The notes under the pieces were generated by a model. It was given only the letters and a program-made list of their open reading frames with translations, had not been told where the DNA came from and did not search any database. DNA of 64,000 nucleotides, from assembly GCA_000611775.1 (NCBI GenBank), contig KK106982.1, positions 124,001 through 188,000 of the forward strand, read 5' to 3'. The first letter of the stretch is position 1; every line of letters begins with the position of its first letter. Below are positions 18,366 to 48,264 of the stretch, piece by piece. A program made the position numbers and the translations under genes. The stretch is from Umbilicaria muhlenbergii. Taxonomy: Eukaryota > Ascomycota > Lecanoromycetes > Umbilicariales > Umbilicariaceae.

Positions 18366-18820
18366 TGTGAGCATTCAGTGTACAGAACTCACCAGGTGCT
18401 AGTTCAGAATAAGAAAGGTTATGCTTAACAACAGCACAGCCTTGTGAAGGTAACTTTCACTAGTGAATCAACTTCATGAGAGAGCTCAGCCAATAGACAT
18501 CACTCTCAGCACTTCACGGAAGTGGTTAAAGAAGTTGACATCATTGATGACACCTCATGAAGGTGTGATTCAGCAATGAACACCTCATGAAGGCAGCTTC
18601 ACTGAGGTGACTGCTTCATGAGACCTTCCTCAGGCAGGCTAGCTTCAGAAGAGATATATTATGAGGTCAGAGTGTGTTTCACTTTCTTTCTTAGCAATAA
18701 TTCTCTACCTACTAGCAATACCATACTATTGCGAACCATCAACTATAAGCCTAAGTCACTATTGTCACATAGCTTCATAATTCCTTAGTTAAGATATTAC
18801 CTCGCGGTAGTACGCTTACA
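18366..18820 (+). repeat. 3' LTR of element B
   Basis: 455 bp, TGTGAGCATT to TACGCTTACA. It is preceded by a G-run polypurine tract and followed by the duplicated target AACCA. Confidence 0.95.
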
Positions 18821-18825
18821 AACCA

Positions 18826-19100
18826 AGGTTCATGCAGACATGAAAGCCGCCCTGACAGACCTCAATTGTGCTCTAGAAGAGAGGTTGAAGGCTCAAGCAG
18901 ATGTGAAATTCATTCTATTGAACTACTGAGGCATCAACCTAGAGGACGGGAACATTGAAGACGGTGTTTTTTAGTATCCCCTGCAATGAAAGGGACATCA
19001 TGTCAAGCTTGAAAAGTACAGTGTCGTAGGCTACATACTACATTGCACCAAGCGCACTTATTATCAAAGCTGATTGCTGAAGACTTCATACGTAAAATAA
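18826..19100 (+). pseudogene. Coiled-coil protein gene, 3' part
   Basis: This is the continuation of the gene interrupted at 11523. Removing element B and one AACCA restores phase (a Val-Thr-Lys-Val junction). The segment encodes ADMKAALTDLNCALEERL, a predicted coiled coil, then KFILLNY and a GINLEDGNIEDG stretch. It ends at TAA 19098-19100. Internal TGA/TAG stand where Trp would be expected (after LLNY, after DGVF, after YPLQ), in the same manner as the neighbouring ferric reductase. No named family is recognised. Confidence 0.6.
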
Positions 19101-19265
19101 GATCCACTTCAATACATGGTGTGCTTGACTGCCACATATTGACTTGGGAGTCTGAATGACAATGAATATGCTCTGCAAGAATCCTGCTATTGTTGGTTCT
19201 GATTCTGATATCTTGAAACAGATTACCGCAAAGATATTCTGCAGCTGATCATTCATTGCTTGAAC

Positions 19266-21247: not shown

Positions 21248-21569
21248 GACTTTCAGTGGTATGAATTAGTCAAACATCATGTGAGGTCAAGCCATGGCTG
21301 CTGATTTGTACCTGACTGAAAGGCATCCAGAAGTGGCGACATCCACTTCTGCCCTCATCGGGGCGAAGTTTGCCATTCCAGCTCCCTTGACATGCATAGC
21401 CCGCTTTCAGCACAATGAAAGTGTATCATTGGTCAAGTATCATCCGCCGACGAAGGATTCAATGTTGAATGCGGCATCCAATTGTGGCTCCACCAAATGC
21501 TGACTTAAACCCCTGCGGCACGAGATAGCGCTACCAATCCGCCACATTAAATAGATTCAAACAAGTTAC
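21248..21569. other. Spacer between ferric reductase and MADS-box genes
   Basis: About 320 bp lie upstream of both genes, which diverge. Short open frames exist, but none resembles a family. It probably held the two promoters. Confidence 0.4.
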
Positions 21570-21815: not shown

Positions 21816-21967
21816 ACCGCTCATGAGTTGCCCGTCAGATAAATCTCACTCCACCCCCTTTCCGCCGATGTCCCAAAGACTTTGAGACAATGAATGAAGA
21901 GAGAGACAATGATGAGGACGATGAAGAAGAAGGAGGAGGAGGAGGAGGAGGAGGAGCCTCCTCCTCA

Positions 21968-22080
21968 TAGCCTAGACCAGGCTAGCCCGTGGGCTAGCCC
22001 GTCTAGTTAGACCAGCCTAGACCGGCTCATGGAGCGGGCTAGCCCACTAATGAGGCTGGCTAGCCCGTCTAGCTAGCCCA
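21968..22080. repeat. GGCTAGCCCGTCTAG subterminal repeat array of a hAT
   Basis: Short direct and inverted copies of GCTAGCCC and GTCTAG are packed just upstream of the hAT transposase gene. The same motifs fill the MITE at 25899-26257, tying both to one hAT family. A GAGGAGGAGG purine tract at about 21926-21957 lies to the left. I found no outer inverted end or 8-bp duplication here, so the left boundary of the transposase-bearing element remains open. Confidence 0.75.
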
Positions 22081-22161
22081 TGCGGGGTAAAAAGGGCGTG
22101 ATTCCGAAAAGGGTAATAATTGTAGGCAGGCCTCAACAACGAAAATTCTTCACATTTCTTT

Positions 22162-24483
22162 ATGCTTAATAGATTGAACTCTGCTTCGAAACAAGCAACC
22201 ACCATGAGTTTAAGTGACAATATATCTGAATTATCCTCTCTCACAAGCCTTCCATCGACTGATCTTGATACCACACACCTTGATGGCACAGTTACGACTG
22301 TTTCCCCCGATGATACAGTTACTGTCGGCAACAAGCAGTACATAAAGACTGCTGTCTTGAAAACCCACGCCAAAAACCCTAAGACGTCATGGGTCTGGCA
22401 ACACGGCGTCGAACTGCTTTCACCAACAGACAGGAAACGTTTTTGGTGTTGTTCTAAATGCTCTACAAACAATCCCGCCCTTTACAGCCGTTCTTCCACT
22501 GAGCACATAGCTGGACACTTAACTCGAGCACATAGACTGACAAAGAATGGGCCTTTAGCGCCACAGACTTCTGTGCTGGAACTACAGCAAAGAGCCTCAC
22601 GAACGACAGTCTCGAGCATAGTCACACGGGTGGATTTCAATCGATTTCGTACGGCTTTGATCCAGTGGATTGTTTGCATGCATATCGCCTTCTCAACCAT
22701 CGAAAACCCCCTTTTTCGAGCCTTCCTATGCACGATTTCGACAACAGTCCTCAGTGTTTTGCCGCAGAATGGAGACACAATAAGAGCATGGATAATGGAG
22801 GATTTTAGGATAAAGAAAGTGCTTATTCGACAGTCTTTAGCTGAAAGCAAAAGCCTTATACACCTCTCCTTCAATTTATGGACGTCCCCAAACAGTATGG
22901 CTATGCTCGGCATTGTGGGACATTATATGGACAATTCCGGGGTGAATTCTACAGTTCTACTGGCTTTGCGAAGGCTTCGTGGGTCACACTCTGGGGAGAA
23001 TATGGCTCAGCTGGTTATAGAGGTTATTCAGGACTACGATATCATGGACAAACTTGGCTATTTTATCTTGGATAACGCCTCATCGAATGACACCTGCGTT
23101 GAAGTGGTTTTAGTGGAACTTCGCCCTGATCTTAACCCTCAACATCGCCGTCTACGCTGCCTCGGGCATGTTCTGAATTTGGCCGCCAAAGCCTTCTTGT
23201 ATGGTGAGGAAACAGAGGCTTTTCAAGCCCAAATTGAGCTACAACAGGTGTTGGAAGATGAGGTTCAAGAGCTTCAGTTATGGCGAAAAAGGGGGGCCGT
23301 TGGAAAGCTTCATAACATTGTTGTTTTCATTCGACGTACACCTCAGAGACGAGAAGCTTTTGAGGACCTTATAAAACTGGATTCACTTGCCCTGAACAAC
23401 TTCAGACACCTCCAATTAGTCGCTGACAATGCAATCAGGTGGAATTCTTTGTACCAAATGATTGAGCGGGCGTTGAAACTCAAGGATGGAATTGATTTCT
23501 TCCTTGTACAAAATCAATCAAGCAGCCATGGGACGGCCCGGCCTAAGGGTGGTACAGAGGATGCCAGGGCTCTGAAGCATGATTTTCTCACCTCTGAAGA
23601 CTGGCTGTTACTCACTGATATGCTGGAAATTCTGAAGCCATTTTTCAAACTGACAGTTCAAATGGAAGGCTATGGGCGGATGGGTGTACGAGGTGCTTTA
23701 TGGGAATATCTACCTTCACTGGAATACCTGATGACGCATCTGGAGGAGAAAAAGCAGTCCTTTGAAGCCTTAAGCAAGGATCCCAATTATTCGACTCCAG
23801 AAAATCGACATATACACACATGTGTGGTGAACGCTTGGATTAAGCTTGATGAGTACTACTCTCAGCTTGATAAATCACCTGCCTACTACGCCTCCTGTGT
23901 CACAAACCCCAAGATGAAATGGGCGTGGTTCGAAAAGCATTGGATGGATAATCCAGATTGGATTTTGCAGGGCAAGAATGCCCTACAAATCTTATGGGAC
24001 ACTAATTACAAAGGCTGTGGTCTCTCTCCTTCAGATGACGTTCATACATACCTCAATGAGCGAGAACCAGACGACTTCGAACAATTTATTACAATGCCAG
24101 AGGATTTGACGACCGAGAAGCCTGATTCTTTGGACACATATTGTCGAGAACAACCCAATTCGACTTTTGAAAGCCCGCTACAGTACTGGAAATTGCAGGA
24201 GGGTGTGTTCCCTGATTTAGCAAAGCTTGCTTATGACATGCACTCGATTCCTGCCATGTCTGCGGAGTGTGAACGGATTTTCAGCAGTGCAAAGCTCCTA
24301 ATCAGTGACCGCCGAAATCGCCTCAAGGAAGACAGAGTGAGCTTAATTCATACACATTCGTTCATCGTGTGTTTAACAAATCCTCCCAGCTCTAACGAAT
24401 TCAGAACCAATCGTTTTTACGGGCTACGCGCTTCATGCCACGAGAAAGGTGGCTGTAAAATGTCTGAGCTGAAAATCAGGTAG
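22162..24483 (+). CDS. hAT family transposase, open 773-aa frame
   Basis: This is a cut-and-paste DNA transposase in one exon. Near residues 75-125 there is a BED-type zinc finger (FWCCSKC then HIAGHLTRAH). The RNase H-like core has SFNLWTSPNS at about residue 236, DNASSNDTC at about 303 and RLRCLGHVLNLAAKAF at about 330. The C-terminal dimerisation domain has SAECERIFSSAKLLISDRRNRL at about 690-720. The frame is intact and close to the usual hAT length. The first catalytic Asp, normally in an FDLWTS motif, is Asn here (SFNLW), so activity is doubtful. Left subterminal repeats are present; the right terminal repeat was not found, which suggests a truncated or decayed element. Confidence 0.92.
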   Translation: MLNRLNSASKQATTMSLSDNISELSSLTSLPSTDLDTTHLDGTVTTVSPDDTVTVGNKQYIKTAVLKTHAKNPKTSWVWQHGVELLSPTDRKRFWCCSKCSTNNPALYSRSSTEHIAGHLTRAHRLTKNGPLAPQTSVLELQQRASRTTVSSIVTRVDFNRFRTALIQWIVCMHIAFSTIENPLFRAFLCTISTTVLSVLPQNGDTIRAWIMEDFRIKKVLIRQSLAESKSLIHLSFNLWTSPNSMAMLGIVGHYMDNSGVNSTVLLALRRLRGSHSGENMAQLVIEVIQDYDIMDKLGYFILDNASSNDTCVEVVLVELRPDLNPQHRRLRCLGHVLNLAAKAFLYGEETEAFQAQIELQQVLEDEVQELQLWRKRGAVGKLHNIVVFIRRTPQRREAFEDLIKLDSLALNNFRHLQLVADNAIRWNSLYQMIERALKLKDGIDFFLVQNQSSSHGTARPKGGTEDARALKHDFLTSEDWLLLTDMLEILKPFFKLTVQMEGYGRMGVRGALWEYLPSLEYLMTHLEEKKQSFEALSKDPNYSTPENRHIHTCVVNAWIKLDEYYSQLDKSPAYYASCVTNPKMKWAWFEKHWMDNPDWILQGKNALQILWDTNYKGCGLSPSDDVHTYLNEREPDDFEQFITMPEDLTTEKPDSLDTYCREQPNSTFESPLQYWKLQEGVFPDLAKLAYDMHSIPAMSAECERIFSSAKLLISDRRNRLKEDRVSLIHTHSFIVCLTNPPSSNEFRTNRFYGLRASCHEKGGCKMSELKIR

Positions 24484-24779
24484 GATATCTGATCCCCAGG
24501 TTTTAGATGCAGGATCTTCCTCGAATTAAAAACGTTGGTATCGGAAGAATTTGATCTGACTGGTCATTGAAGGGGAAATGGCGCACTATTTCAGGCAGGC
24601 TTAGATGGCGCAGCCACACCTTATTTATGTCGTATGTGCGCCTTGCAGTTTTTACTTGACGACCGGCATCCATATCAAGGCTCCTGGATATGGCACTTCT
24701 CTACCTTAGTTTTTGATTGTTGCGCAGCCCCTCGAAACTTTCACAGTGTTGTCTGGGTTCTATTTTCACTATGGTCTAC

Positions 24780-25366
24780 CTATAGGAATATTCCAATGAC
24801 ACAGCCAAGGACGAAGAGCAGGTTAACGTCTTCCTTTGATACTTTTCTTGCCGACGCCTTTTCAGAGAATGGAGAAGGAGAGGCTTGCGCTGTCGGTCTC
24901 AGGCTACTGGTTCCCCAGAGACTATTGTTTGATTGCTTCAAACCCGATGACTGACTTGCCGTTGGAGCTGAGCCAGTCAAACCATGGTAGTCAGGCCAAG
25001 ATGAGCCTGTGGGCATAAAAGAGTCTATCTGGGTCCCGACCGACGGCCCTGCCTCAGACAATTGAGTGATTGCAGGAGTGGGCTCAATATGACCGCCAGA
25101 TCCACTTGATACGACTTCTACCGTTGCTCTTCCTGGAGTAGCAATGGGATCTGTGCTAGAAGACGTTTTTGCACTATTGACCCGCGCTTGTGCACTAGTA
25201 TTGACGCTCGTTGAGTTCCATAATATGTCGATCTCGATATTGATGGTCTTGAGTATTTCGTCCGCACGACTAAGGAAAGCACATTAGCTCGTTCGCTATT
25301 AGTCTAGAATACCCACATTGCAACAATGCATAGCATCAATAGGGTAAAAAGCTTTACTCTTTCCAT
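24780..25366 (-). CDS. Small secreted, probable GPI-anchored Ser/Thr-rich protein
   Basis: Two exons (25317-25366 and 24780-25269) with a 47-nt GT..AG intron give 179 aa. The N-terminus MERVKLFTLLMLCIVAIRA is a good signal peptide. The middle is rich in Ser, Thr, Gly and Pro, with NxS/T sites. The C-terminus VNLLFVLGCVIGIFL ends at TAG with no cytosolic tail, as in GPI-anchored precursors. No catalytic domain is seen. It is probably a cell-surface or wall mannoprotein of unknown role. It is intact and has CpGs. The hAT gene is convergent on one side and the J-domain gene divergent on the other. Confidence 0.68.
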
Positions 25367-25766
25367 GTTCGCGGTACAGTAAACAGGTACAGCGAGGAGA
25401 AAGATGTTCTTTATTGATCCACACAAGTCAAGAACCTATTCTGGATCCCCAGGCGCCCATTATGGATGCCCCTTCTGGAGGAGGACCTTTTGGATCTAAA
25501 TGCAGCTAGATTCGATCACGGCGAAGACCCAGCCAAAACCGGTGCCAATGTGAGCACAACTTGGTTGGCGTCCTCTCGTCATTATCTATAAGTACTTCCC
25601 TTGTGTTCCTATGACTCTTTCAAACTCCATTCTGATAGAGATTCAAAGCTCCGTCGACCCAAACCAGAAGATCATTTGATCCGAAGCATATCTGTTACCA
25701 AAATCAGTTGACCTGATTATCGGACAAATCCACAGTCGTTGACTCTCTTCTTCGGCTTTCTCAACC
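25367..25766. promoter_or_regulatory. Divergent spacer between secreted-protein and J-domain genes
   Basis: 400 bp lie between two starts pointing away from each other. TATCTATAAG near 25583 could serve as a TATA box for the rightward gene. No other site is clear. Confidence 0.4.
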
Positions 25767-25890
25767 ATGAGCTCATCAAGACCCCCTAACAACAGTGATG
25801 TCCAATACCCTGCTCTCCCAGGCATATCGGGTATCTCAACCGGAACCCCAAACGGCAATGCAGTCATGAAAAGTAATGCGCAGGGGTCAG

Positions 25891-25898
25891 TGAACGAC
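25891..25898. repeat. Left 8-bp target duplication TGAACGAC of the hAT MITE
   Basis: TGAACGAC occurs here and again at 26258-26265, directly outside the two inverted ends. Eight-base duplications are diagnostic for hAT insertions. Confidence 0.95.
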
Positions 25899-26257
25899 CA
25901 GTGTTCCTAATAGCCTAGCCTAGCCTAGACCGAGCCTCAGTCTAGGCTAGGCTAGCTCGTGAAGAGCTCGGTCTAGGCTAGGCTAGCCCGTCTAACAGTC
26001 TAGTTAGACCAGCAGGGGGTATAAGGCTAGGCCTGATAGAGAAGGTTAGACTAAATATCTGCCTACATAGACTAAGTGAAGCGACATTTCAGCCTTACAC
26101 CTCAGCCTCATGAGGCACTCTGAGAATCTGTCAGGGCTAGCTAGACCGGCTAGACCACTGGCAATCCAGTCTAGCCCGCTGAAAGGAGCCGTCTAGGCTG
26201 GTCTAACTAGCCGGGCTAGCCCACAGGCTAGCCCGGTCTAGGCTATTAGGAACACTG
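25899..26257. mobile_element. Non-autonomous hAT MITE, 359 bp
   Basis: It has perfect 20-bp terminal inverted repeats starting CAGTGTTCCTAATAGCC and ending in the complement, the CAGTG..CACTG form usual for hATs. It is flanked by the 8-bp duplication TGAACGAC. Its interior is made of GCTAGCCC/GTCTAG motifs shared with the left flank of the hAT gene at 22162, so that family probably mobilised it. It carries no coding capacity. It sits in the first coding exon of the J-domain gene. Confidence 0.95.
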
Positions 26258-29118: not shown

Positions 29119-29227
29119 GCGGCGGGTATCTATTTTCGAAAGGGTCCACAAACAAATAGACCCCCCCTTTCTATGCATAGACCCTTTTTCATACACATAG
29201 ACCCTTTATCTTACACATAGACCCCCC
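29119..29227. repeat. Left inverted end of the MULE
   Basis: It contains ATGCATAGACCC, ACACATAGACCC and ACACATAGACCC in a row. The right end repeats them in reverse complement with few changes. Confidence 0.88.
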
Positions 29228-29326
29228 TAACTACATATGGTTAGACAACATGTAGTTGGTTTTTTCTGCCGCCTGCTCAATTGTGACTGCCACACGCCTG
29301 CGACCCCCCTTTCTTGCAGCAAAAAA

Positions 29327-31160
29327 ATGGATACTTTCTCCAGTCAGACCACGGAATATTTCGACATGGAGGACCCATTTGAGGCCGTAATTGAAGACGT
29401 TTCTGACAGCGAAGAAGACGAAGAAATAGATGATTCCATGATCAATGAAGCTGACGAGCCAGACCCCCCTCCTATGCAATTAAAACCTCCACCACTTGCA
29501 CTCAGGCTTAAGCCCTTTATAACAATCAAAGACCTCATCAACACCATCAACATGCACGCCGCAAAGCAAGGTTATGCTATAGTTAAAGCAGGGTATAAGA
29601 AGAATAAAGGCGGAGAAATTAGGAAAATAAACCTGAAGTGTACTCAGGGGGGGAAATACAAGGCCAAAGTGGCTCCGGAGGACAGGAAATGAACCAGGGC
29701 TGTATGTACAACTGGATGTAAATGAGGGGCGTATGGCAAGCTTGTAATGGGGGAGTGGTATTTGTTTTTGAAGGACACCAAGCATAATCACCCTCCGTCA
29801 AACCCTGAAGCCCTAAACCCTCACCGAAAACTGCAAGCGGAGGACTTAAAGACAGTTGCAAATGACAGAAAATGACACCTTACAGCTCAGCAAACAGTCA
29901 CCGGCCTCCGCACGAATAACCTCAGTTGATTCTACAAAAAACAGGACATCTACAACGCCATAGGGTACATTCAACGCGCAGAATTAGGAAATTTAACCCC
30001 TATTCAAGCCCTCTTGAAGGAGCTTACAGCGTCAGAAAAATGGTACATTTCTTACGCCGTTGACCCCTGGGATCAATTGAACCGCCTCTTCTTTGTCTAT
30101 CAACCGTCATTGAACTGGCTGAAGAAATACCCTGATGTTCTATTCATAGACGCAACCTACAAAACCAACCGTTATAACATGCCCCTTGTTATATTGACGT
30201 CGACGACGGCCTGCAATAAAACCTTCTATGTAGGGTTTGCCTTCCTCCGTCATGAGGACCATGAGTACTATGAATGGCTTGTCAGCCAGATAAAAATCAT
30301 ATGGACGGATATAGGGCAATTTAATGGCCCCACCACCACTGTCTTGAACAAGGAGGAAGCCTTAATTGGGGCTTTCACCCTTTTAATGCCGATGACTGCC
30401 CTTATTCTCTGTCAATGGCATATTGGCAAGAATGTAGTCGCTTGAGTCAAGACAGGGGGTTATTTCTCCGTGGCGGAAGCTCAGCAAGAGTGGGCCAGAC
30501 TCTGGTTTGCAGTTGTACAAGCCCCGACGCCTGCAGCCTTTCATGAAGCCAAGGCAACCCTGGCAATTGCTGACTCAGGGCTAAATGCCCGCTGGCCTAC
30601 TACCCTCTATGAGTACCTCCTTAAGGAGTGGCTCATTGAGGGCATGCGTGAGAAGCATTGCTGAGCATGGACGGACAAGATTCTGCATTTTGGTAAGCTA
30701 ACGACGTCAACAGCAGAGTCAGGGCATTGGGGGATCAAACGGGGACTAGAAAGCAGTCTTGAAGACCTTGCAACAGTTGTACAAAGCATACACATCAAGC
30801 TTGACAACCAATTGCAAGAAATCCACCTTCTGCATGAAGATCAGAAGTCTGGCGCTATACTTTTCATGCATAACGCCCCTATTTTTCGATATCTACGCTT
30901 TGAAGTCAGTATTCATGCCACTGAGTACATGTTTCTGCAGTGGGAGCAGCTTACCAAGGAGCCCACATGCCTGCTACCCTGTACCAGGGTGTTCTGAACC
31001 ACCATGGGTCTTCCGTGCAAGCACGAGATTCAAACCCTTCTCTTCGCCAAGGAAGCCCTGAAAAGGGATCACATTCACCCACACTGATGGCTTGATCCGC
31101 TCACGGAGGTCCAGCCCGTGGACCCTGTGACTGTGGTTCAGAATCTCATCCGAGTTCGTT
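29327..31160 (+). pseudogene. MULE transposase, interrupted
   Basis: The likely start is ATG 29327 (MDTFSSQTTEYF), followed by an acidic stretch (SDSEEDEEIDDS). After position 29690 the frame is lost, then regained for a FAR1-like zinc region with KHNHPP. The open stretch 30014-30445 holds the catalytic core: D in LFIDATYK, the second acidic site probably in the TTVLNKEEALIGA region, and CQWHI. Stops follow near 30443 and 30661. The SWIM finger (CTRVF then TTMGLPCKHEI) lies in a different frame from the part before it. MULE transposases cut at long inverted ends and leave 8-10 bp duplications. Confidence 0.82.
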
Positions 31161-31209
31161 GACGTGGAAGACCGACGGAGACTTCCACCAGGTGAGACCT
31201 CTCTCAGTG

Positions 31210-31591
31210 GGAGCTTGCCCTAAACCAGGTTAGCCAGCGAGAGCGGCGAGAGCAGGAGCAGCAGGAGCAGCAGGACGGGGGGAGGCAGGAGGAGGAAGAG
31301 CAGGAGGGAGGGGGGTGGAGGAGTCAAGGAGCAAGCCAGCAAAGGGGGAATGAACGGCGGCAGCGAGGCTCACGAGCTCCGCAGCGACAGCGAGCTCCAC
31401 GGGCTTCACGGGCTCCGCGGGCTCCACGAGCCCCAAGCCAGCGAGCAACAAGAGCAGCGAGCCAGCAAGCTCAGCAGCAAGAAGAGGCACTACCAGGGCA
31501 GACAACTCTGTCTCAGTTCACCAACTTTGCCCCTGTGGCAGACCGTCTTGGGAACATGAGGCAGCGGGGACAGCGACCTCCAACTGTGACG
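31210..31591. repeat. Low-complexity AGCAGGAG / GCGGGCTCC tract
   Basis: GAGCAGCAGGAGCAG, GGAGGAGGAAGAG and CACGGGCTCC runs make this stretch purine-rich and repetitive. Open frames here on both strands are composition artefacts, apart from a possible tail of the MULE transposase on the plus strand. Confidence 0.75.
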
Positions 31592-31841
31592 NNNNNNNNN
31601 NNNNNNNNNNNNNNNNNNNNNNNNNNNNNNNNNNNNNNNNNNNNNNNNNNNNNNNNNNNNNNNNNNNNNNNNNNNNNNNNNNNNNNNNNNNNNNNNNNNN
31701 NNNNNNNNNNNNNNNNNNNNNNNNNNNNNNNNNNNNNNNNNNNNNNNNNNNNNNNNNNNNNNNNNNNNNNNNNNNNNNNNNNNNNNNNNNNNNNNNNNNN
31801 NNNNNNNNNNNNNNNNNNNNNNNNNNNNNNNNNNNNNNNNN
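31592..31841. other. Assembly gap, 250 N
   Basis: Exactly 250 undetermined bases lie inside the MULE, right after the low-complexity tract. The true length is unknown. Confidence 0.99.
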
Positions 31842-31978
31842 GCGGCCGCGGCGGCGAGGTAGCAACCTATAGACGTATTAGCAAGTTCTTCATATATTGA
31901 ACTTCAAACCGTGTTATTCCAGGCGTTCTATGGCCCCAAATCCATGCTTCCAACCTGAAACATAAAAATTAGTTCAGA

Positions 31979-32079
31979 GGTCTATGAGTAAGATAAAGGG
32001 TCTATGTGTATGAAAAAGGGTCTATGCATAGAAAGGGGGGGTCTATTTGTATGTGGACCCTTTTCGAAATATCTGCCGC
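31979..32079. repeat. Right inverted end of the MULE
   Basis: Reverse-complement partner of 29119-29227, with GGGTCTATGTGTAT, GGGTCTATGCATAG and TTTTCGAAA, ending in GCCGC. Confidence 0.88.
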
Positions 32080-35320: not shown

Positions 35321-36572
35321 CTATGCCGGAAGATTGATAGGCTGCGAGTCAGATTCATTGAGCAGTCTCAGGTCAATGAATAGGGGAGGGTCAGAGTAGA
35401 CTGATGATGCCGGCGTCAGGGTATCAAGTGTGGTCTCATCTGAGGTTCACTCACTTGTCAAATGTGGATTTTCAGAGCTTGTGAGAGACGCTGCAGACAG
35501 ACTTCGCTTCTCCTGATTTGCTATTGGATTGATCGAAGGAAGAGAATAACTTTGAAAGGGATCATTTTCCTCTTCCAGTCCCACCGGTCTTGAAGAAACG
35601 ATGAAATCAAATGCCTTGAGAAGTGGTGAATCCATTGTGTCATTGATATGCTTGTAAGGGCTTTCCTCATTTAGGAGGTCACAATGATGCTCTAGCATGA
35701 CACTCATCCTGAGGAAAGCCCTCACACTCAAAGAAGACGGATGCGTCCGGTGACGCCTTTTGATCAGATTGAGCTTGATCCGCTCAACGCAGTGTACATC
35801 CTGACAGTGATACTGAAGATCTTGAATCAAGTTGAAAGAAAGTGCACAGCATGAATCTGGACATGAAACTGCCTTGCTCTCACCCGCTTTCATAAATCAG
35901 TTGTATATGTCCTTTAACTGTCAGAAATGTTCTTGCAGGTGCTCTCTTCAGCTCTGCTTGATGAAAAACTGATGAAAATGTTTTGTTGGTGAGAGCTTCA
36001 AGTTGAAGAGACAGAAGAGACATTGCTCAGCAGTAGTGAGGGTTCAGCGGAAGACAAGGGGATTGCATTGAACTGAGAGCGTCTCAAGGTCAGTGAGGTG
36101 GCATTGACAATGCTCAAATCATTCAGCCCCACTGATGAACCATTTGTTGCACTGAAAACAAAGCTCAGCAAAGCTGTATTTCCTTTCAAGGGAGCCCTTA
36201 TGGCAACAGTAAATATGTTCTCACCTATCAGCAGTACTGATGCTGTGGATGTTTTATCAGCCAGCTCACCACAACTGAGCATTTGGGAAATTGGGAAAGG
36301 AGACGTAGATGAACTGGTTCATTTCCTGCGCACATTGAGGTACAGGGCAATAACCGTTTTCAGGCTGCAAGCTTGAATGATAGACTACCTGTGGATTTTC
36401 TTCACATAATGTGATCATGTCCTGAAGTGCGTGACGGCCTTGTATACTGCGGAGAGGAACGTTGAGGAAGAGTGAAGATGTCAGCTGATCACGTGGCGGA
36501 TCTAAACAGCAAATGCAGTTGAAGTAGCTTGACAGACTTGTGACTTGAGGTGCTTCATCCTCAGTGTTTAAG
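35321..36572 (-). pseudogene. DUF3435 recombinase gene, 3' part (zinc-finger tail)
   Basis: This is the downstream part of the gene whose 5' part is at 44926-46736; Ty3 element C lies between. From 36572 leftward the minus strand encodes, in shifting frames, DPPRDQLTSSLFLNVPLRS, QGRHALQDMITLCEENPQV and ENGYCPVPQCAQEMN. Later come HCQDVHCVERIKLNLIKRRHR and CPDSCCALSFNLIQDLQYH, the C2H2-like finger at the end of many DUF3435 (FluG-domain) proteins. The frame ends at about TAG 35321-35323. An intron with acceptor near 35877 is likely. The stretch carries several stops and shifts and is AT-rich. Confidence 0.75.
36568..36572. repeat. Left target duplication TTAAG of element C
   Basis: TTAAG abuts the 5' LTR, and the identical pentamer follows the 3' LTR at 44921-44925. 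Confidence 0.95.
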
Positions 36573-36855
36573 TGTCAGGGCCACCATATAATAGTATGAC
36601 AGTACGACACTAGTACGACACTATAGTACGACACTATAGTACGACATTATATAGATATGATGACTCAGCGCCTAGCGCCTTGGCATCAAGTAAAACTCTT
36701 CACAAGGAGGTTCAGAAACCTGCTTCCTCAGTGATCAGTTTTGCCACTGAATAGAAGACATATAACCATTGCATTGGCCTCATCATGACTATATTGCCTA
36801 TGACACCTCATTCAAACACCACTATGACGCTCTGTCATACACCCCGCCTCTTACA
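36573..36855 (+). repeat. 5' LTR of element C
   Basis: 283 bp, TGTCAGGGCC to CCTCTTACA. It has lost more CpG sites than the 3' copy. Confidence 0.95.
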
Positions 36856-39800
36856 TACTGATCGCTCAGTACCTTCAGGCGAACGGTCACGTTGAAAGCA
36901 AATAAGACATGATGGCATCAACGCTTCAATCTCATCAGGTCAGTGAAACAGTCAACAATCAAGCTGAGGCAGGCCCTTCAATTAGCAGGTCTACATTATC
37001 AGTTGTTGATACCTCTACTTCTGACATCATTGATGATGATGAACATATCACTGCAGGAAACAAAAATGACATCATTGAAGATCTTGAGGCAGTCACTGCT
37101 CATAATCAGGAGGTCATCAAGCATCAGTGATCACAGTTACAATGTGTACAATAAGAAATTAAGTTTAAAGACAATAAAAGGGAGCTTCAGGAGCTCAATC
37201 AACACCTGTAAAAAAATTCTTCAATTATGACAAACTCAGGGAACAACACAGGTTCATCACATGAACTACAATGTCAAGTTATGACAGACATCACACCTCT
37301 CCCTTTTCAACACCTTATAAAGTCATGAGAGCCTCATCTTTATGCAGGAGGTGTCAAAGTCATGAGATGAAGACTTCAAGAATACTTGAATGAAATCAAT
37401 CAAAATCAGAAGCTGATGTCAGAGCAATTCTCTACTGAATGAGATTTCATCATCTGAGCAGGCACCTACCTTGAGAAAACAGTCATGAGTGACTGATGAA
37501 AGCAAAAGGAGCAGCATGATCACATTTAAGTCATTTACAACAACTTTTTAAAGATTCTAGAGAAGAACCTATCCCCTGATGAAGACATGAATGAATGAAA
37601 TATCATCACCTTTAATGCAGTTGAATTTCACAGTCATAATACAATCATCTTCTGATATGACAGATTATCAGAACTCTACTGCTTCCTTTCAGCTTCACAC
37701 AAGGAAATCAGTGAGATGCTCATTTAAAACTGTTAATGATCAAGGCTTCCTCATCATGTTCTGACTGAACTACAATGTTGAGATCTGATGCAGGTTGCAA
37801 GACAGTCAGTGCAGGAAATTTCAACACATCTTGACATCATCATTAATCATGAACTGTTCTGAAGTCGTTCAGACACTAAAAAGGACTGTTAAAACAAGAT
37901 TGATGACATAAACAAAAGTATGACACTGACATCATACTATGACAGAAAAGAATCTTTCACTGAACAATAAACCTCTCACCCTCAACAATTCAATCATGAA
38001 AAAAAGAACAATTCATGAGGTTTTTATCAAGAAAGTAGCCGTGACCAAAGCTGAAATTTAAATCACATATCAGTTGCGGAGAAAGTGATCATGACAATAA
38101 TGCAGACATTCACAGGACCTTCACACTGACAAAGAGACTTTGTTCTCAAGAATGAAGTGAATACATGAAAAGCAGCAGGCCTCTGTATCAAGTGTGAAGT
38201 CATCAGTCATTGAATAAATAATTGTATGACTGAATGATCTACAGCCGTCTTCATCACAATTAATGTGAATAAATGATTCACAGATCACCTTCAGTTTGCT
38301 TCATTACTAATTATTGATGATATCTCACGTCTGATATCAGGGCAACTAGAGGTGAAACTGCACATAACAACAATGAGTGATATGATGAGCAAATCTCCAC
38401 AATATTCATATATTATCAACAATGACAGTCAGGGGAATATAATCACATGAGATGTTGTCAACAAGCTGTTCTTACTGACTGAATCCTATGAGGCTCAAGG
38501 CAATGCATGAGGTAATGTGATTGAGCTATCAGAGTCTGTCATACTGATGATTACAGCATACAACACTGACGGTCAACTCTATCATTATAACAATCATTTC
38601 TTTGTCACATAAGACAACACATCAGCTCCTTTTGTCCTCAGGCTATCATTTTTAGTTCATGCAAACTCAAATCACTACTATGATACGGGTAAATTTCTAT
38701 GAAGAAAGTCAAAACATACTACCTCATGCTGTATATTCATCACTGATGAAAAGAAGATGTTGAAGAATGTTTTATGTATGAACAACCTCATCATTATTGA
38801 CTGTTTTATAGAGCTGGCAGACCTAGTGACTGATATGAAAAAATATACTCTACAGATGAACTTGTTGTGATATGACAAAGAGTATGACAATGTCTATGAC
38901 AGTCTACCTCCTGAATATTATGACTTCACAGACATATTTCAGACAACTGAGAAGCAGTCTTTACCTGAGAGAGGTTCACATGATCATGTCATTGACTTGA
39001 AATCAAGGCAGCAACCTTCATTCAGAAAGTTATACTTGATGTTCTCAGCTGAACTTAATGTACTGAAGGTATATCTAGATGATGTTATGAAAGTAAACAT
39101 AATCTGTAAATTAATATCACCTGCAGCTTCACCTGTTATGTTTGTACTGAAATCAGACGGCAGCTTATGACTAGTCATTGATTATAAGTGCTTGAACAAT
39201 ATTATCATTAAAAATCACTACTCACTATCACTTATATCAGACATGTTGAATCATCTTCAAGAAGTTAAGAAGTTCACTAAGCTGAACTGCAAGGATGCAT
39301 ATAATCAAATATGAATCAAGGGTGAAGATGAGTGAAAAACAGTGTTCTGAACACAGTTCAGCCTGTTTGAATATCTTGTCATGCCTTTCAGTCTCATGAA
39401 TGCTCCTGCTACATTTCAGGCATTCATTGATAAGGCTCTTGACAAGTTCCTTAATATAATCTGTGTAATTTATCTAGATGATATCCTGATCTTCAGCAAA
39501 GATGAATTCAAACATGAGAAGCATGTATGACAAGTATTAATTACATTACAACATCATGATCTTCATCTTAAGATCAGCAAATGCTTTTTTAATGCAACAG
39601 AAGTGAACTTCCTGAGGTTTAAGATTAATACTGAAGGCATACATATGAGTTCAGAAAGGATTCACGCTGTTGAAGAATGACTACCCTCAGAGAACATTCA
39701 TGAATTGCAGATTTTTCTAAGCTTCATTAACTTCTTCTGAAGGTTTATAAGAGATTATTCATGAATTGCAGCATCACTGTTAAATCTTCTGAAAACAGGA

Positions 39801-40641
39801 AAGAATAAAAAGAAGATTAAAGATACATCATCCTCTCCTCTTCAATCTCAATGAACTGTTATTAAAAGAAAGCAGAACAGCCTGACCTCATTGTGAAGAT
39901 TTAATACAGAGTATTCAGCATGCAACCTGTAAGTCAGAGGAAAATTATAACAAGAAAACATCATACCTGCCTCTTTTTCACTCTCAGGAGTCACATTGAA
40001 AGTGTTTAATGCTTTGAAGGAGACCTTCATGAGTGCTTCATTATTATGTTATTTTGATGAAAACAAACTCATGAGGGTTGAAACAGATGCCTCTGAATTC
40101 ACAATTAATGAAATCTTGACACAACACTTTGAGGTCAACAGTCAATTGCACTGATTATTAATTACTTATTACAGTAAGAAGCTGCTAAATACTGAGACCT
40201 GATATGATACAAGTGAGCAAGAGCTTCTTGTCATCATGAAAGTCATGCATCATTGACAGCACTACTGTTGAGGTGTTAAGCATCTGATCATCATATTGAC
40301 TGATCATGCAAACCTTGTTTGATTTATGACTATCTCAAACCTCACATGAAGGCAGCTCAAGTGAGCTGAAAAGCTCACTGAGTATGACTTTAAGATCACA
40401 TATCAAGAGGGCAAGAAGAACTCTGCTGACAGTCTGTCAAGATGACCTGATTATGAACTGCTGAAGGCTGTCAGTACCTCAACTGTCACTGAAATAATGC
40501 AACAGTCCTTCCATTTAAGAAGCAAGGATTATAAGTCAGTGCAGGAGAAATTATACATGCTTGTCACAATGATGCTGCAGTCAAGACGCTCAGTATGACA
40601 GAGATTACAACAAAAGAATGTCATACCTGTCACAATGAATA

Positions 40642-40911
40642 ATATCAGTATAATGAATACTGAAGCTGACAGCATGATTGAAACATCAGCAGTTCATGAT
40701 CTACATGCTCAAGAAGCAAGCTGTGATGAACATATCAATATGATGAATACTGAAGCTGACAGCACAACTGAAACATCAGCAGTTCATGATCTACATGCTT
40801 GAGAAGCAAGCTGTGATGAACATATCAGTATGATGAATACTGAAGCTGATGATACAATTGAAACATCAGCAGTCCGTGACCTATATGCTCAAGAAGCAAG
40901 CCGTGACTGAA
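40642..40911 (+). repeat. Three 90-bp tandem repeats between RNase H and integrase of element C
   Basis: Units starting at 40642, 40732 and 40822 share AATACTGAAGCTGA, GAAACATCAGCAGT and AAGAAGCAAGC. The period is exactly 90 bp (30 codons), so the unit keeps the pol frame. It lies in the spacer between RNase H and integrase, where no enzymatic domain is expected. Confidence 0.92.
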
Positions 40912-42647
40912 TGAAAAAGCTTAAGTATGCAAAACCTGAGCAGCACTCAATCAAGGATAACACAGCAAGCACTGTAGTTATGAATGATGACATAAGTCAC
41001 ATTTTTATTAATTTTTAAATTGAGGATAGCACTCCTTCTGCTGACATTGTTGAAGTGTTTCAGCTCATGTCTACTCACTCACTCCTAGGTGAGGAGATAA
41101 CAGCTTATACAAGAATGTTTATTAAACAACTTGAATATACAATTCATACTGAACAGTCAAAAGATGATTTGATATGATGAGTATGACAGGGATTAACTAC
41201 CCCTCTTGAGGATAAAAACAACTTGACTGAGTCAGAAATGACAAATATGATGACAATACTCCCTGACATAATGAAATGTTGAGAGGAAATTGAGGATGTC
41301 ATATACTATAATGATAAGATTTACATTTCACAGAACCCTGCCCTCTGCAATGCAGTGATCAGTTGATTTCATGATGATGTCTTTGCAGGTCATTTCAGGA
41401 AATCAAGAATTACAAAATTGATGCAGTGATCTTATGACTGACTTGATGCTGTCAGAGATGTATGATGTTACTGTCATGATTGTGTCAAATGTCAAAAGGT
41501 GAAGCCAGCTCATCACAAATCATACAAGTTATTAAACTCATTGTCAGTCTCAACTGAGCTGTGACATATGATGACAATGAACTTCATTACAGATATGCCA
41601 CTGAGCAGCAAATATGAAAGTATGACATGAGATTCAATCCTTGTCATAGTTGATAAGTTGATCAAAATGGCTCACTATATTTCAGTACAGAAGACAATGT
41701 CAGTTGCTGACTTCATTGAAGTGTTTATTCAGGACATAATTAAGCATCATGACATGTCAAAAGTCTTAATCACAGACAGAGATAAGCTGTTTACATCAGA
41801 GCAGTGAATCAGCTTCTGCTTTCACATGTGATGTTGTCATAACATGTCAACAGCTTTTCACCTGCAAACTGACAGTCAAACAGAGAGGCAGAATCAGTCT
41901 CTGAAGATGTATTTACACATATTCATTAATGAGCAGCAAGAGAACTGAGTGAAGCTTTTACTCTGCATGAAGTTCTCATACAACAACTTCATACATGCTG
42001 CTATGAGAAAGAGCTCCTTTCAGCTTAATCTAAAGTGAGACCCTCAGATGAGTCTAAGTAAGCTGTTTATACAGCACTCACATGAACAAATAAGACTCTA
42101 TGCAGATGCACAGCAGCTTCAAGATTAAATTGTAACAGCTCAGAAGCAACTACAACAGGTCAACAAGATGTATACAAATTATTATAATCAGCATTAAATG
42201 AAGATAACATTCAAAGAAGGTGATTTAATACTGATTAATGAAAAGAATGTGTCAGTGAACAAGCAGATGAAGAAACTGCATTGAAAAAAGCTCAGCTCAT
42301 TCATGATATGACATGTGATAAGTTAATCATCATATGAACTTGACCTCTCAGAGGATCAAAACATCTATAACATATTCAACATCACTTTATTGAAGTCATT
42401 TCAAGACACACGTCATGTGTCTCCTGCATTGACAGGAAAAAACCTACTACTCAACTGAGACAATGAGTGAGAAGTCAAGGCAATTGTGAATAAATAAATT
42501 CATGACAGCAGGCTTCAATACCTCATCAAATGAAAGCTGATGAACCAGGTGTGAGATGACACATGAGAGTCAACACACTTCATTCACAATGTAAAAGCAA
42601 AAATGTGAAAATTTCATGTTGACAACTCTGACAAACAGAAATTCAGG

Positions 42648-42809
42648 TGAGCCTTAAGATGTGACTCTTCAAGATTGATTGAGAGGCTGTCACAAAAGTC
42701 ATGAGCCTTAAGATGTGACTCTTCAAGATTGATTGAGAAGCTGTCACAAAAGTCATGAGCCTTAAAACATGACCTTTCAAGATCAATTGAGAAGCTGTTG
42801 CAAAAGTCA
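42648..42809. repeat. Three 54-bp tandem repeats in element C
   Basis: Units at 42648, 42702 and 42756 each start TGAGCCTTAA and end CAAAAGTCA. They lie just after the chromodomain-like region. Confidence 0.92.
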
Positions 42810-44637
42810 TGAGTTTTAAAAACTGAAAACTTTGTCAGTTTTGTTAATCTGATCTCTTATGACAGAGCCTGTGCTCTATGATAAGTATGACAGAGGTTAT
42901 GATGTTATGATGTTATGACAGGATCTTTAATAGAATTACTGCATGAACTACATTATTATAAACATGTCACATTGCAGAGAACACTCAAGTGCAGAAGCAT
43001 TTCATTTCAGGTTTAAAGATCAAAATGAACTTGAGATCAACACCTTCACTCAATCTCTCATCAGTGTCACATTAAATCATCTTCATTTATTTACTTGTCT
43101 TCTGCTGTCTTAAACTCTTTTTCACTGTTTGATGAAGCCTCTGACCTCATCTCCTCAACATGATGCTGCTCACAGAGTTCAATATACTCTTGATGATGAT
43201 GAGATTGATGAGTGTTGAGAACATGAAGAGCATGAGCAGTGCTCTTCAGCAAGACAACAAGAGCTTGAATGAGCTCCTCAGAACTACTGAATTAACACAT
43301 TTTAACTCAAAGAAGTTAAGAAACTCATGTTGAGGAGCAGCTGCAGAAGGCGTGAAAAGTGTTAATAATGATTAATAAGAAGCAGCAGCATGAGGAATTA
43401 ATCAGCTGTCAAGCACTATACAACAATTAGCATATTAATAATACAACAGTGCAACAGTACAGCAGTATGACAAAATGTTGTATGTACAACAGTACAACAA
43501 AATGTTGTATGTATGACAGTATGACAAAATGTCATAGGTATGACAAGTACATCATATTCATATTAAATGAAACAAAACAAAAAGAGATTAAGAAAGACAG
43601 ATTTACAGTGTGCTGTCACCCCTCCTGTCATCATAAGCACGCGCGTGCAGAACAACAACATCAGAGCTCTCAGAGGCTGAGGCAGTGATGATCAGAGGCT
43701 TCATCATGCATTAATCATGAGGATTGTGAAGCAATGTGCAACAAGTGCAGGCTGAATTGACTTGTGACATGAAGCACTGATCAACTTCAGCTCTTCTGCA
43801 AGAGTCACAGTGAGCAGTACCTGACAGCATGTGACTGAGGTTCTCTCAAATCACACACTCATGATGATGGCCCTGCTGTACACGCGCCGGCAGTGAGGTA
43901 TCATCATGACATCACACAGAGCAGGAACTGCTGCTGAAGACATCACTCAGAGGTAGACATCTGACCCTCTTCAAACACTGAACAGTCAGTTTTATCACCC
44001 TGTTTCCCTGTCTCTTTCTGAAGGTGTCAATCATCACAGTTTCACTCACTGACTCTGACTCAGAGCCCTCCTCATCACACTGAGCCTGAAGATCAACAGG
44101 CTTCCCTGGTGAAGACGGGTCTTCACCGTTGTCCGCGGCCATGAGTTTAAGAGTTCAAGTATTGATTGCCTATATATCATGTTAACATCCATATGAAGTA
44201 CGACAGGAAGTATGACACTGCAAATGAGGTGTGAGCTGCAAGCTTCATGACGCTCCCTTCATGAGGTGGACACCTTTGCAATGAGAGATGACGTCATGAA
44301 GTCATCAGGTCACTCAATGAGCTGTGGAAAAGTCATGAGAAGTATGACAACATGTCATAATAGAAACAATGAAGAAGAAACACAAGGGAAGGGGCATTTT
44401 GAACCTACAGTAAACATTGTGGTTTTTGATGTTTATGTTATGAAGAAAGCTTACTGCCAGCGTGATATCATCACAATTAAGTGAGGCATGTGATCAGCCT
44501 TACTTTAGTGCAGTCCCGCGTGACCACCCTACAAGCTCAACGCGCTCACCCTACAACCTCAACTGTTACGACGTCGTAATGAAGTTTACGAGCGGTCAGT
44601 TGGCTCCAGGGACGGCGTCATGGGAAGGGGAATGCTG

Positions 44638-44920
44638 TGTCAGGGCCACCATATAATAGTACGACAGTAAGACACTAGTACGACACTATAGTACAACACT
44701 ATAGTACGACATTATATAGATATGATGACTCAGCGCCTAGCGCCTTGGCATCAAGTAAAACTCTTCACAAGGAGGTTCAGAAACCTGCTTCCTCAGTGAT
44801 CAGTTTTGCCACCGAATAGAAGACGTATAACCATTGCATTGGCCCCATCGTGACTATATTGCCTACGACACCCCGTTCAAACACCACTACGACGCTCTGT
44901 CGTACACCCCGCCTCTTACA
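44638..44920 (+). repeat. 3' LTR of element C
   Basis: 283 bp, the same length as the 5' LTR. It is followed by the duplicated target TTAAG. Confidence 0.95.
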
Positions 44921-44925
44921 TTAAG

Positions 44926-46736
44926 GTAATTTTGCGTGGTTGAATCTGCTGTCATTTGCTGAGCTCCTCAGATATGATCTGGCGCTTCCATCAATACAAT
45001 TCCTCTCATCAAGCCTGAGCAGGCTGAGCTTCATCTTTTATTGTGATGGCTCAGAGTTTCTCCCTCAGCACTTTGATCTCCTGATTAATGAAGATGAATT
45101 CAGAACAATTGTCAAGGTCAGCTTCCACTTTCACAGGAAGTGATTGCAGCAGCTGAGGATGATGATGAAGTGATAACCCGTGAAAGCCTTCAAGATGAAT
45201 AGTGTGACGTTTTTTATTTCAGTAACTTGCTATACCATCAACAGTACTCAGCTCAGGCGTGTATGAGCTGAAGAAGATATTCATGTTGTTGTGGCCTGCA
45301 AATTTCATCCTTTCAGAAATTGAGTACTCATTATCTTGACAGAGTCAGTGAGTCTCATCAGAGGTTTTCCATCTCAAGAGCTTATCATCAGCTTTGATGA
45401 GGGCTTCTCTTTGAATGTCATGTATTCTGATGTTCTCCTTGTACTCAGCATGATGACTTAAGTTCACTGTCTGATTGCTGAAAGAGCCTGCTCCCTGGAT
45501 CTTTCTCATTAGTTCATCCGCAGATACTATCTGAAAGAAAAGAACACGGAGCATGTCCTTCTTGATTTAAAGGTGATGCAAGGACTCATCTGCGGGCGGA
45601 GGAATTTCTTCAATCTCTTTAAAAGTCGCATAGTCCTGAAAGGCACGGTCTGCTAAGGTGATTGCCAGTAAAGGCAGTACTGAATTTGCAAATAGCAGCT
45701 TCATGTCCTCATACATGCCATGCTGTGGCCTAGAATTGCATTGAAACAGTTAGCACAGGTTGCTCATGATCATGATCCTGAAGCATTAAACAGTAAAGCA
45801 ACCTTTTGTGTGGTGTTTGTGAAAAGCCTTTGACATCTCATGTGACTCATACATCAATCTCCGCTTTTCCTTGTTCATTCTTGAAGATGATGAAGTCAAT
45901 AGTCTGCTCAAAGAGTGAGTATCAGTCCTGAGCTCATTCTTGATCAGTAATGTCTTATATGGTTCACTGAACTTACCTCATATAGCAATCCACGGCCAGT
46001 GCCTTTGCGCATGTTGGATTTGAAATACTCACCCACTCACGCTGATGAATAGATGAAAAGCATGTAGGCAGTGTGATCCTGAACCAGGATTCATTTGTGT
46101 CTGTATTGATGTCAATCCTTCTTCCACATGTGTTTGATGACAATGATGAAGTGGTTCACCGTCATGAAGTGCCGGGTCCATCAAGTAGTTGAAAGTCTGA
46201 ATTTCTTCCGCAGCTCAGTTTGTATGTACTAGAGAGACCATTAGACTTAACAAATCAAGGGAGAGTGAGGATAGGTGGAAGTACGAACAAAGTAGATGGA
46301 TTCGGATACTTCAGGAGGGATCTTGTTATTACCAGGCCGACGCTTCCAACCCGCGCCGAAGTCTGTCCATTTCTGAAGCATGGTGTACATTGACGGTTCC
46401 TTCTTACCGGCACAGCAGCCGCGCACGACACCCTCCATAAAATGTTTTGACATTTTCCTATCATAAGGTGTGGCTCCAGGGTTTCTCCTCTCGTACCTAT
46501 TTCACAGAGACAAGACACAGTCAATAACGGTTCAGCTATATTTCTGCAGTCGTGAGGAAAGACATGAAGACTCACTCATCCCAAAGGACCAACATGCGGG
46601 TGTAATTCGTTTCAGTGCCAGACTCGAGGTGCTTGGAGACCTTGTCACTATTCAGATCGGTCTTCATCAAGGGCTCTAAGCCATGCGTTTCCGCATCATC
46701 GAAGAACTGTGCAGCAGTCCTCTTTTTTTTCGTCAT
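44926..46736 (-). pseudogene. DUF3435 tyrosine-recombinase-like gene, 5' part (Starship captain type)
   Basis: The start is ATG 46736 (MTKKKRTAAQFFDDAETHG), giving TYTRMLVLWDE. An ~85-nt intron ends near 46497. KHFMEGVVRGC, MYTMLQKWTDFGAGWKRRP and NNKIPPEVSESIYF follow, and a second intron spans about 46189-46248. This first ~150 residues is clean. Further left the frame degrades: NELRTDTHSL, LAITLADRAFQDYATF, the recombinase core (HDIQREALIKAD, ERMKFAGH, then SSYTPELSTVDGIASYWN-like with the candidate nucleophilic Tyr) and FHGLSLHHHPQLLQSLPVKVEADL. These match the DUF3435/FluG-domain family, which includes Starship captains. Several TGA stand at expected Trp. The gene continues at 36572 beyond element C. 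Confidence 0.8.
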
Positions 46737-48264
46737 TAGAAACGAGGTGAGAGCAAGAGGTAACCCAAATGACAATAAGGACTGAAATGTATAGAGCGAG
46801 GAAAGATAGTGTAAGCTATATATAGAGTAGATATGCGATGAGAACGCGGATAATAGAACAATTGGTATACTGATAAGTTACCGCAAGTAAATGGACATGA
46901 GAGCAAAGGGCAAGAGGGCAAGAGGGCAGGAGGAAAAGATGACATGATGGGCAGTCAGTAGAGCCATATATGGACCCTTTTGATGAGCATCCAATTCGAG
47001 CTGAATGGACGCTCTCGTTTAAACTTGCAAGAACTCGACAGCCGGTGCGAACGGCGAGGAGATAGGAAGTGGCGGAGGGGGAGCATGAGAGAGCAGCAGG
47101 GGAGCATGAGGGAGCAGTGAGGGAGCATGAGGGAGCAGTGGGGGAGCATTGAGGGAGCATGGGGGAGTACTGAGGGAGCAGATGAACGAAACAAGCCTTA
47201 GCGCGCGAGCAAAGCGGCGAGGCCTGAGTCAGCCAGAGGTCACGTGTTGGCCTGGGTTCGGGGAAACTATATATGTATATATATAGGGTGTCCGTGTATG
47301 AAATCAGGGGTATCGGTTGACGAGGACCCTCTTCAACGCATATATACATAGAAAGTTGTGAGGGCTGTCTATGTAAGAAATAGAAGGGTGTCGTTCGATG
47401 AGGACCCAACTGTGCCAACCAAGTGGTATACCACTGACATATGCATCATGACTTTCGACCTGATGGATTTGGACGCAGTATTTCTTTGTCCGCGGCCGAA
47501 AAGGCTCCCAGTGGCTTGAGCGGCAAAGAGTGAGGTTCACACTTCCCCAATGCGACGTAGCTAGCCTACCTACTGAACCAATTGCGCAGTTCGATCCTTT
47601 TACTTTCTAACCACATTTCATTTGCACGTCCTTCCCACTTCAACCTCGTTCTACCCCCATTCTAGCCAGATGCCATCCCCATCCCACTGCAGCAAGTTTC
47701 CACTCGAACGCCCATATCTGCTTCCTACCCGCCGCCATCTACAGGACTCTCCAAGGCATTGATCCACGCGCTCGAAATCTGCACCCACGATAGACGAGCC
47801 GAGTAATAGAGATGATAATTAAAACGACGCCAATGGTATATACATATACGAGCTCAGATCATCCAAATCTTCCCCCCAATTCCGACATAGCACTGCCTAT
47901 TCGATCTTGTCAAACCTCAACGCGTCTACATCAAACGAGGCGTCTCTTCACCCCCTTACCCTTGGCCTCGCGTATCCCTTCCCACCCCCACGTCCCCCGA
48001 GGAGCTCAAACGCCCAGGTGCTCCGTGGGGCGCGCTTGCACGGCTCGGGACCAAAAACGGCCACGGATTGCCGACGGATGCCTATCTGCCACCGCGGCTG
48101 GTAAGGGAGGAGGTGTAGATGTCGAGCTCATCTTGAACAAAGGCGTCAAGGAGACACTGTTTGGTGAGCCGAGCCTTGATGTGCCACGGCGTCGAGTGCT
48201 GGCTCCATGTGGGCCCATTCCGGCACAACCTCAGGTGACCCAGGGTGCTGACACGGTAGAAAGC
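46737..48264. other. Boundary stretch between island and gene block, no supported gene
   Basis: 1.5 kb follow the DUF3435 start. They include TATATATA runs near 47270-47285, two imperfect copies of an AGGGTGTC..GAGGACCC block (about 47286-47335 and 47384-47410), and a minisatellite at 47077-47182. The right part is C-rich, ordinary euchromatin. A 194-codon plus-strand frame (47812-48396) overlaps the Ulp1-type gene end and matches nothing. If the island is a Starship, its captain-side end should lie here. Confidence 0.5.
47077..47182. repeat. GGGAGCATGAGGGAGCAGTG minisatellite
   Basis: Seven to eight imperfect 10-bp GGGAGCATGA / GGGAGCAGTG units occur in tandem, close to the island edge. Confidence 0.85.

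Follow-up and report, generated by a model that had tools for sequence, protein, structure and literature searches.

Background

Starships are described as elements of 15-700 kb that carry a DUF3435 tyrosine recombinase (YR) gene, the captain, as their leading gene, together with direct repeats (DRs) and sometimes terminal inverted repeats (TIRs) (PMC12134995). NLR, PLP, FRE and DUF3723 are named as their accessory families (PMC12506042), with an accessory role also assigned to DUF3723 and FRE in PMC10128009. These families are no firm mark of a Starship, because the Gaeumannomyces Starships are without DUF3723, FRE and PLP (PMC12134995). A separate chromodomain gene has been placed at one Starship end (PMC12506042), and CryptonF elements encode a YR and have short terminal direct repeats and no TIRs (PMC3212892).

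DUF3435 YRs usually occur without an element (PMC12134995), degraded captains are on record (PMC11623301), and in the basidiomycete Tremella fuciformis eight Starships of 42-606 kb, one of them with DRs and TIRs, have been claimed from 27 haplotypes using starfish (PMC13066641). Since element-free DUF3435 YRs, degraded captains and basidiomycete Starships are thus already in print, the gene presented here is a further example of a described kind.

Here we present a ruined YR gene found in a stretch of 64,000 nucleotides (the window; C2:124001-188000) from a genome of 34.8 Mb in seven contigs, C1 and C2 among them, with fungal gene content. The loss of CpG had at first suggested a basidiomycete; DUF3723, the HET matches and the presence of long ORFs without introns tilt towards Pezizomycotina. 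Like the Starship captains of Pezizomycotina, the gene has a DUF3435-type YR core in its middle and a C-terminal DNA-binding-like tail, and it occupies an edge of a repeat block, is oriented into that block and has a DUF3723 relic downstream. Unlike them, it misses the DUF3435 profile directly and belongs to a lineage apart from the genome copies that score strongly with that profile, and its block has neither DRs or TIRs above chance nor intact cargo among the features identified. The Tremella fuciformis Starships share YR captains with the present case; however, they are defined across 27 haplotypes, whereas here a single genome is considered. CryptonF elements are likewise YR-encoding (PMC3212892), but their GCR1_C domain was absent from the Pfam matches of four pieces of the window gene and eight open reading frames (ORFs) of its better-preserved paralog, L021.

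Results and discussion

Layout of the dead recombinase gene

The original prediction had placed on the minus strand, at 46736-35321, a gene with KHFMEGVVRGC, ERMKFAGH and a GH...Y core, in two pieces around a Ty3 element. Direct reading of the sequence confirmed the coordinates, from the ATG (46736-46734) to the last stop (35323-35321), and located all three motifs in minus-strand frames. The parts are as follows (window coordinates).

46576..46736, minus: exon 1, read directly; the N-terminus matches L021
46497..46575, minus: inferred GT-AG intron of 79 nt (GTGAGT...ATAG read)
46289..46496, minus: exon 2, with KHFMEGVVRGC and MYTMLQKWTDF; 3' splice end tentative
45012..45728, minus: decayed YR core with HDIQ, AGH and SSYTP, 34-36% identical to L021
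44921..44925: target-site duplication TTAAG, right copy
36573..44920, plus: decayed Ty3-type LTR retrotransposon, 8,348 bp (LTR pair, target-site duplication, RVT_1, RNase H; Ty3 type by eye)
36568..36572: target-site duplication TTAAG, left copy
35321..36567, minus: 3' part with zinc-finger-like tail (CFQCNKWF; CPDSC...HCQDVHC); three tail pieces match L021

The division into two pieces is substantiated by the TTAAG on both sides of the insert and by its LTR pair (36573-36856 and 44638-44920; 283/284 nt), in which 12 of 283 positions differ, 11 of them by transitions. RVT_1 (9.8e-23) and RNase H domains were recovered within the insert at 39171-41000, with X read at stops. With paired LTRs, a 5-bp target-site duplication, reverse transcriptase and RNase H, the insert is an LTR retrotransposon, its assignment to Ty3 rather than Ty1 being made by eye.

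Without the insert, the gene measures about 3.07 kb. Its YR core holds four in-frame stops (three TGA, one TAA), and the observed/expected CpG ratio (CpG o/e) is 0.22 in the insert and 0.29 in the core, as against 0.82 in exons 1-2 and 0.72 in the 5' flank. The in-frame stops, the loss of CpG and the 8.35-kb LTR insertion are the reasons for which we count the gene as dead.

DUF3435 membership through a paralog

The gene had been predicted to encode a DUF3435 recombinase, and a profile search of its two pieces did not bear this out directly: PF11917 (DUF3435) matched none of the window pieces, either in the genome-wide profile search or in hmmscan, for which decay may be the reason. Because the profile fails on the window pieces, membership rests on L021 (C1:10446000-10453000), and by this route the family assignment stands. 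Five pieces of the window gene, namely the N-terminus, the core and three from the tail, match L021 collinearly and on the same strand, at 25-53% identity by piece and with E-values of 8e-5, 3e-30, 1e-10, 9e-12 and 6e-6 in a search space confined to the loci retrieved for comparison. As a control, 500 shuffled queries, 100 for each piece, produced no match to the retrieved loci at E<=0.01. Because their matches to L021 all agree in order and strand, N-terminal exons, core and tail are treated as one gene. In genome-wide searches, the core reached C1:10448612-10448890 (6e-11) and C1:10448952-10449272 (3e-9) at 33-38% identity, and the N-terminus reached the L021 gene at E 0.05 only.

L021 in turn contains a PF11917 match from the genome-wide profile search (C1:10448961-10449236), and its YR exons score 29.9 and 19.0 bits, the first above and the second below the 25.8-bit cut-off. 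The window core is thus homologous to a PF11917 protein, whereas no window piece itself scores over the cut-off. Furthermore, the GH box has kept its H, and SSYTP its Y, in the alignment with L021 and with a further copy at C1:7207288, and the HDIQ of the window gene corresponds to HDFR in L021; the aligned GH, HDIQ/HDFR and SSYTP positions are what we take to be the catalytic places of the YR box. A PDB search with one L021 YR exon matched no recombinase. On these sequence comparisons, the paralog L021 links the window gene to the DUF3435 family, and the window gene is likely a ruined captain-type YR. That such a gene could be reached only through a better-preserved paralog implies that screens with PF11917 can miss old captains.

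The original prediction also gave the gene a C2H2-like tail. A zinc-finger-like tail with matches to L021 is present, and one tail piece also matches two further DUF3435-related loci, L016 and L022; the C2H2 label itself fared less well, as the Pfam scan called no zinc finger in the window pieces, and zinc-finger matches in the relatives L021, L022 and L016 were sub-threshold.

Relatives in the genome

The L021 gene (C1 ~10447.1-10450.4 kb) is the nearest well-preserved member found in the genome. It differs from the window gene in that its YR matches are free of stops and its C-terminal ORF (L021:1081-1833, minus strand; C1 ~10447.1-10447.8 kb) ends in a near-threshold chromodomain (24.3-24.8 bits, cut-off 25.1); beyond the end of the window gene no chromodomain was seen by eye. 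The L021 chromodomain seems, by eye, to switch frame near its middle, and the stretch ahead of it resembles the 3' end of the window gene. The match with the highest identity to the window gene is a 62-aa relic at C1:4443417 (52%), apart from which no second close copy was found genome-wide.

A FastTree analysis was made of 12 YR cores, all from this genome and with L028, L029 and L013 left out, on alignments that are short and decayed. It joins the window gene with L021 and C1:7207288 (support 0.942), followed by a copy at C2:2645 kb (0.991); inside the three-member clade the nearest partner of the window gene has a support of just 0.437. Other branches unite C1:5139 with C5:855 and C4:1387 (0.973-0.983), and C1:6413 with C1:6960 and C4:1518 (1.000). 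The branch of the window gene stands apart from the genome copies that score PF11917 most strongly, and C1:7207288 reaches only 13.7 bits with that profile. It is conceivable, as a long shot, that the window gene, L021 and C1:7207288 represent a divergent captain lineage whose genes combine a YR with a zinc-finger tail and, in L021, with a chromodomain as well. Such a lineage would steer large cargo elements into heterochromatin, and the C2 block would be a derelict example of them.

As a separate observation, L022:1082-3457 (minus strand; C2 ~2642.6-2645.0 kb) holds an open 791-aa ORF of a DUF3435 gene with sub-threshold zinc fingers, the end of which recalls, by eye, an RTC4-like motif.

The repeat block and its right border

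By GC content and CpG o/e, the repeat block extends over about C2:18-172 kb and is about 150 kb long. Its CpG o/e is often <0.1 and its TpG/CpA up to 1.7, with better-kept pockets such as C2:80-90 kb. To the right of C2:172 kb, CpG o/e is 0.82-1.02 in 11 of 12 2-kb bins and 0.76 in the other, and the genes there include a tubulin-chaperone-D gene and a Zn2Cys6 factor. Two predictions about this island proved correct: it continues past the window edge, as far as about C2:18 kb, and the YR gene sits at its right border reading left into it. By the CpG/GC profile, this border coincides with the 5' end of the gene, which is the first feature seen within it and whose strand points into the block. 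The features in the window, other than the split gene itself, are these.

46737..48260: 5' flank, GC and CpG rising to gene-like levels; single-copy save for short matches in 47080-47328
29131..32071, plus: MULE transposon with 93-bp inverted repeats (MULE 7.4e-21)
21962..26251, plus: hAT transposon with 81-bp inverted repeats (Dimer_Tnp_hAT 2.7e-16)
18700..21300, minus: possible ferric reductase relic and candidate cargo, weak (PF01794 19.3 bits, below the cut-off of 28; rest by eye)

A run of 250 bases in the MULE element, at window 31.5-31.9 kb, is N. Also in the window part of the block is a Pterin_4a frame (42.3 bits), and to the left of the window are a DUF7924 frame (C2:81.3-82.9 kb) and a DUF3723 relic (C2:94567-95744), 75 kb downstream of the YR gene. 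Among the accessory families of Starships, DUF3723 is therefore present in the block, and FRE is represented by the sub-threshold ferric reductase relic, which was not among the genome-wide PF01794 matches at E<=0.01.

A candidate derelict Starship

The original prediction went further and took the island for the captain-side part of a Starship. In agreement with this, the orientation of the gene and its border position fit a captain, and DUF3723 remains lie downstream. Against it, no element edge was found near the gene, the block shows no ends, the window part of the block holds hAT, MULE and LTR elements, and the only sharp-ended DUF3435 unit found, described below, is 5.42 kb. Moreover, a comparison of the 5' flank with C2:1-159.3 kb gave no terminal direct or inverted repeats above nine control sequences: the best flank-left matches were 13 identical or 16/17 bp (E 3.1), the controls had best E-values of 0.05-3.1, and DRs of a few bp are inseparable from chance in one strain. 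A 12-bp inverted match between the 5' flank and 34.97 kb has an E-value of 0.25 in an uncontrolled comparison.

We propose a reading in which a ruined captain-type YR gene, from a divergent lineage of the DUF3435 family, marks what is left of a mobile element. The living protein would have bound DNA via its zinc-finger-like tail and mobilised its element through tyrosine recombination at short direct repeats, of which one would lie immediately to the right (upstream) of the gene. Less surely, the element may have stretched tens of kb to the left, in which case the C2:18-172 kb block would include its debris, alongside hAT, MULE and LTR elements inserted later, and the DUF3723 relic would have persisted there. 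To this proposal as a whole we give a probability of roughly 0.4, and an origin of the block as a derelict Starship, which we hold no more firmly, is the single likeliest explanation of the arrangement. Derelict elements may hide in repeat blocks. Should this block prove to be a Starship, the LTR insertion would offer a means of dating its decay, and the locus would document the late fate of a Starship.

A two-copy DUF3435 unit of 5.42 kb

The genome holds two sharp-ended copies, 91% identical, of a 5,420-bp DUF3435 unit, at C5:853400-858819 (L027:1401-6820) and C2:6560951-6566369 (L029:1452-6870). Searches with either end of the unit matched these two places only, and no target duplication was recognised at its ends. 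These two copies establish that at least one DUF3435 unit below the Starship size range exists in the genome, possibly a Crypton-sized DUF3435 transposon. The window YR could have moved alone in a similar unit of about 4-6 kb, the remaining island being unrelated transposon debris, and the 3.07 kb of the gene without its insert would fit such a unit. We consider this unlikely, given that the 5.42-kb unit sits on another DUF3435 branch of the in-genome tree, that the dissimilarity of its flanks extends over the 1.4 kb compared on the left but over only the 131-181 bp compared on the right, that no unit ends are seen around the window gene, and that the latter has no second close copy save the 62-aa relic. 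The C2 copy of the unit has a DUF3723 locus about 67 kb away, beyond the shared sequence.

A possible immobile gene at the block edge

The window gene may alternatively have been an old immobile or domesticated YR, resident at the edge of the block and killed as repeats spread over it. The absence of a close copy and the 25-53% identity to L021 agree with such a history, as do the gene-like CpG ratio retained by exons 1-2 and the CorA-like gene that adjoins L021, the nearest well-preserved relative, on one side. Other DUF3435 loci, on the other hand, are repetitive (L027/L029 share the 5.42 kb, L031/L032 share 2.08 kb at 90%, and L030 has 1.5 kb of the latter at 86%), and we judge domestication to be improbable to about the same degree as solo transposition.

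DUF3723 proximity to DUF3435

A proximity test, devised after the data had been seen, compared six DUF3723 loci (19 matches, merged) with a DUF3435 list made up of 21 PF11917 genome matches, the two parts of the window gene and two weak matches of the core search. The LTR control consisted of one family, limited to the best 40 of 386 candidates, with 41 of 42 rows used, merged within 20 kb and with the cluster of the window dropped. Within 150 kb of DUF3435 lay five of the six DUF3723 loci, against 5 of 27 LTR clusters (Fisher 0.005), one of ten FRE loci and one of nine HET loci; within 80 kb the counts were 3/6 for DUF3723 and 2/27 for LTR clusters (0.03). FRE (PF01794; 0/10 within 80 kb) and HET (1/9) were also considered as genome-wide co-markers of DUF3435 and rejected for want of a link. 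In three of six cases the DUF3723 locus is on the downstream side of the DUF3435 closest to it, which is the chance level, with strands read by the author.

Three of the DUF3723 loci (C3:1205-2736, C4:1323901-1325432 and C1:6562047-6565015) look like copies of one repeat, because their stretches have identical or near-identical scores; one of them has matches on both strands. When only one of these three is counted, Fisher's test gives 0.004 or 0.04, depending on the locus chosen. That the YR gene and the block border coincide only by chance, repeats having piled up to a living gene cluster and DUF3723 being carried by its own repeats, is suggested by these three loci and by the LTR family of the insert, with at least 42 genome-wide matches spread over all seven contigs, but is highly improbable, as the DUF3723 of the block has no second DNA-level copy and the proximity of DUF3723 to DUF3435 exceeds that of the LTR control, one family at its best 40 of 386. 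The DUF3723 of the block does have a 54-bp match (84%) to C5:856679-856732, inside the 5.42-kb DUF3435 unit.

Further observations on the right flank

A 966-aa ORF at window 48265-51165 (minus strand) contains a GHFVL...DS...NCG-like pattern twice over, which by eye resembles the Ulp1/C48 protease motif. Because neither Pfam nor PDB gave a match, its reading as an Ulp1/C48 protease was dropped, and with it that of a C48-bearing Crypton.

The short matches of the 5' flank fall in a single stretch and point to eight places. Part of this stretch is a 10-bp minisatellite (GGGAGCATGA) at 47078-47182, located 0.34 kb ahead of the YR start. A 115-bp match between the flank and C2:30.0 kb was rejected as a long direct repeat, as it falls in this minisatellite. 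The minisatellite is also present within the block at C2:30.0 kb, and overlapping short matches lie on C1 and C3.
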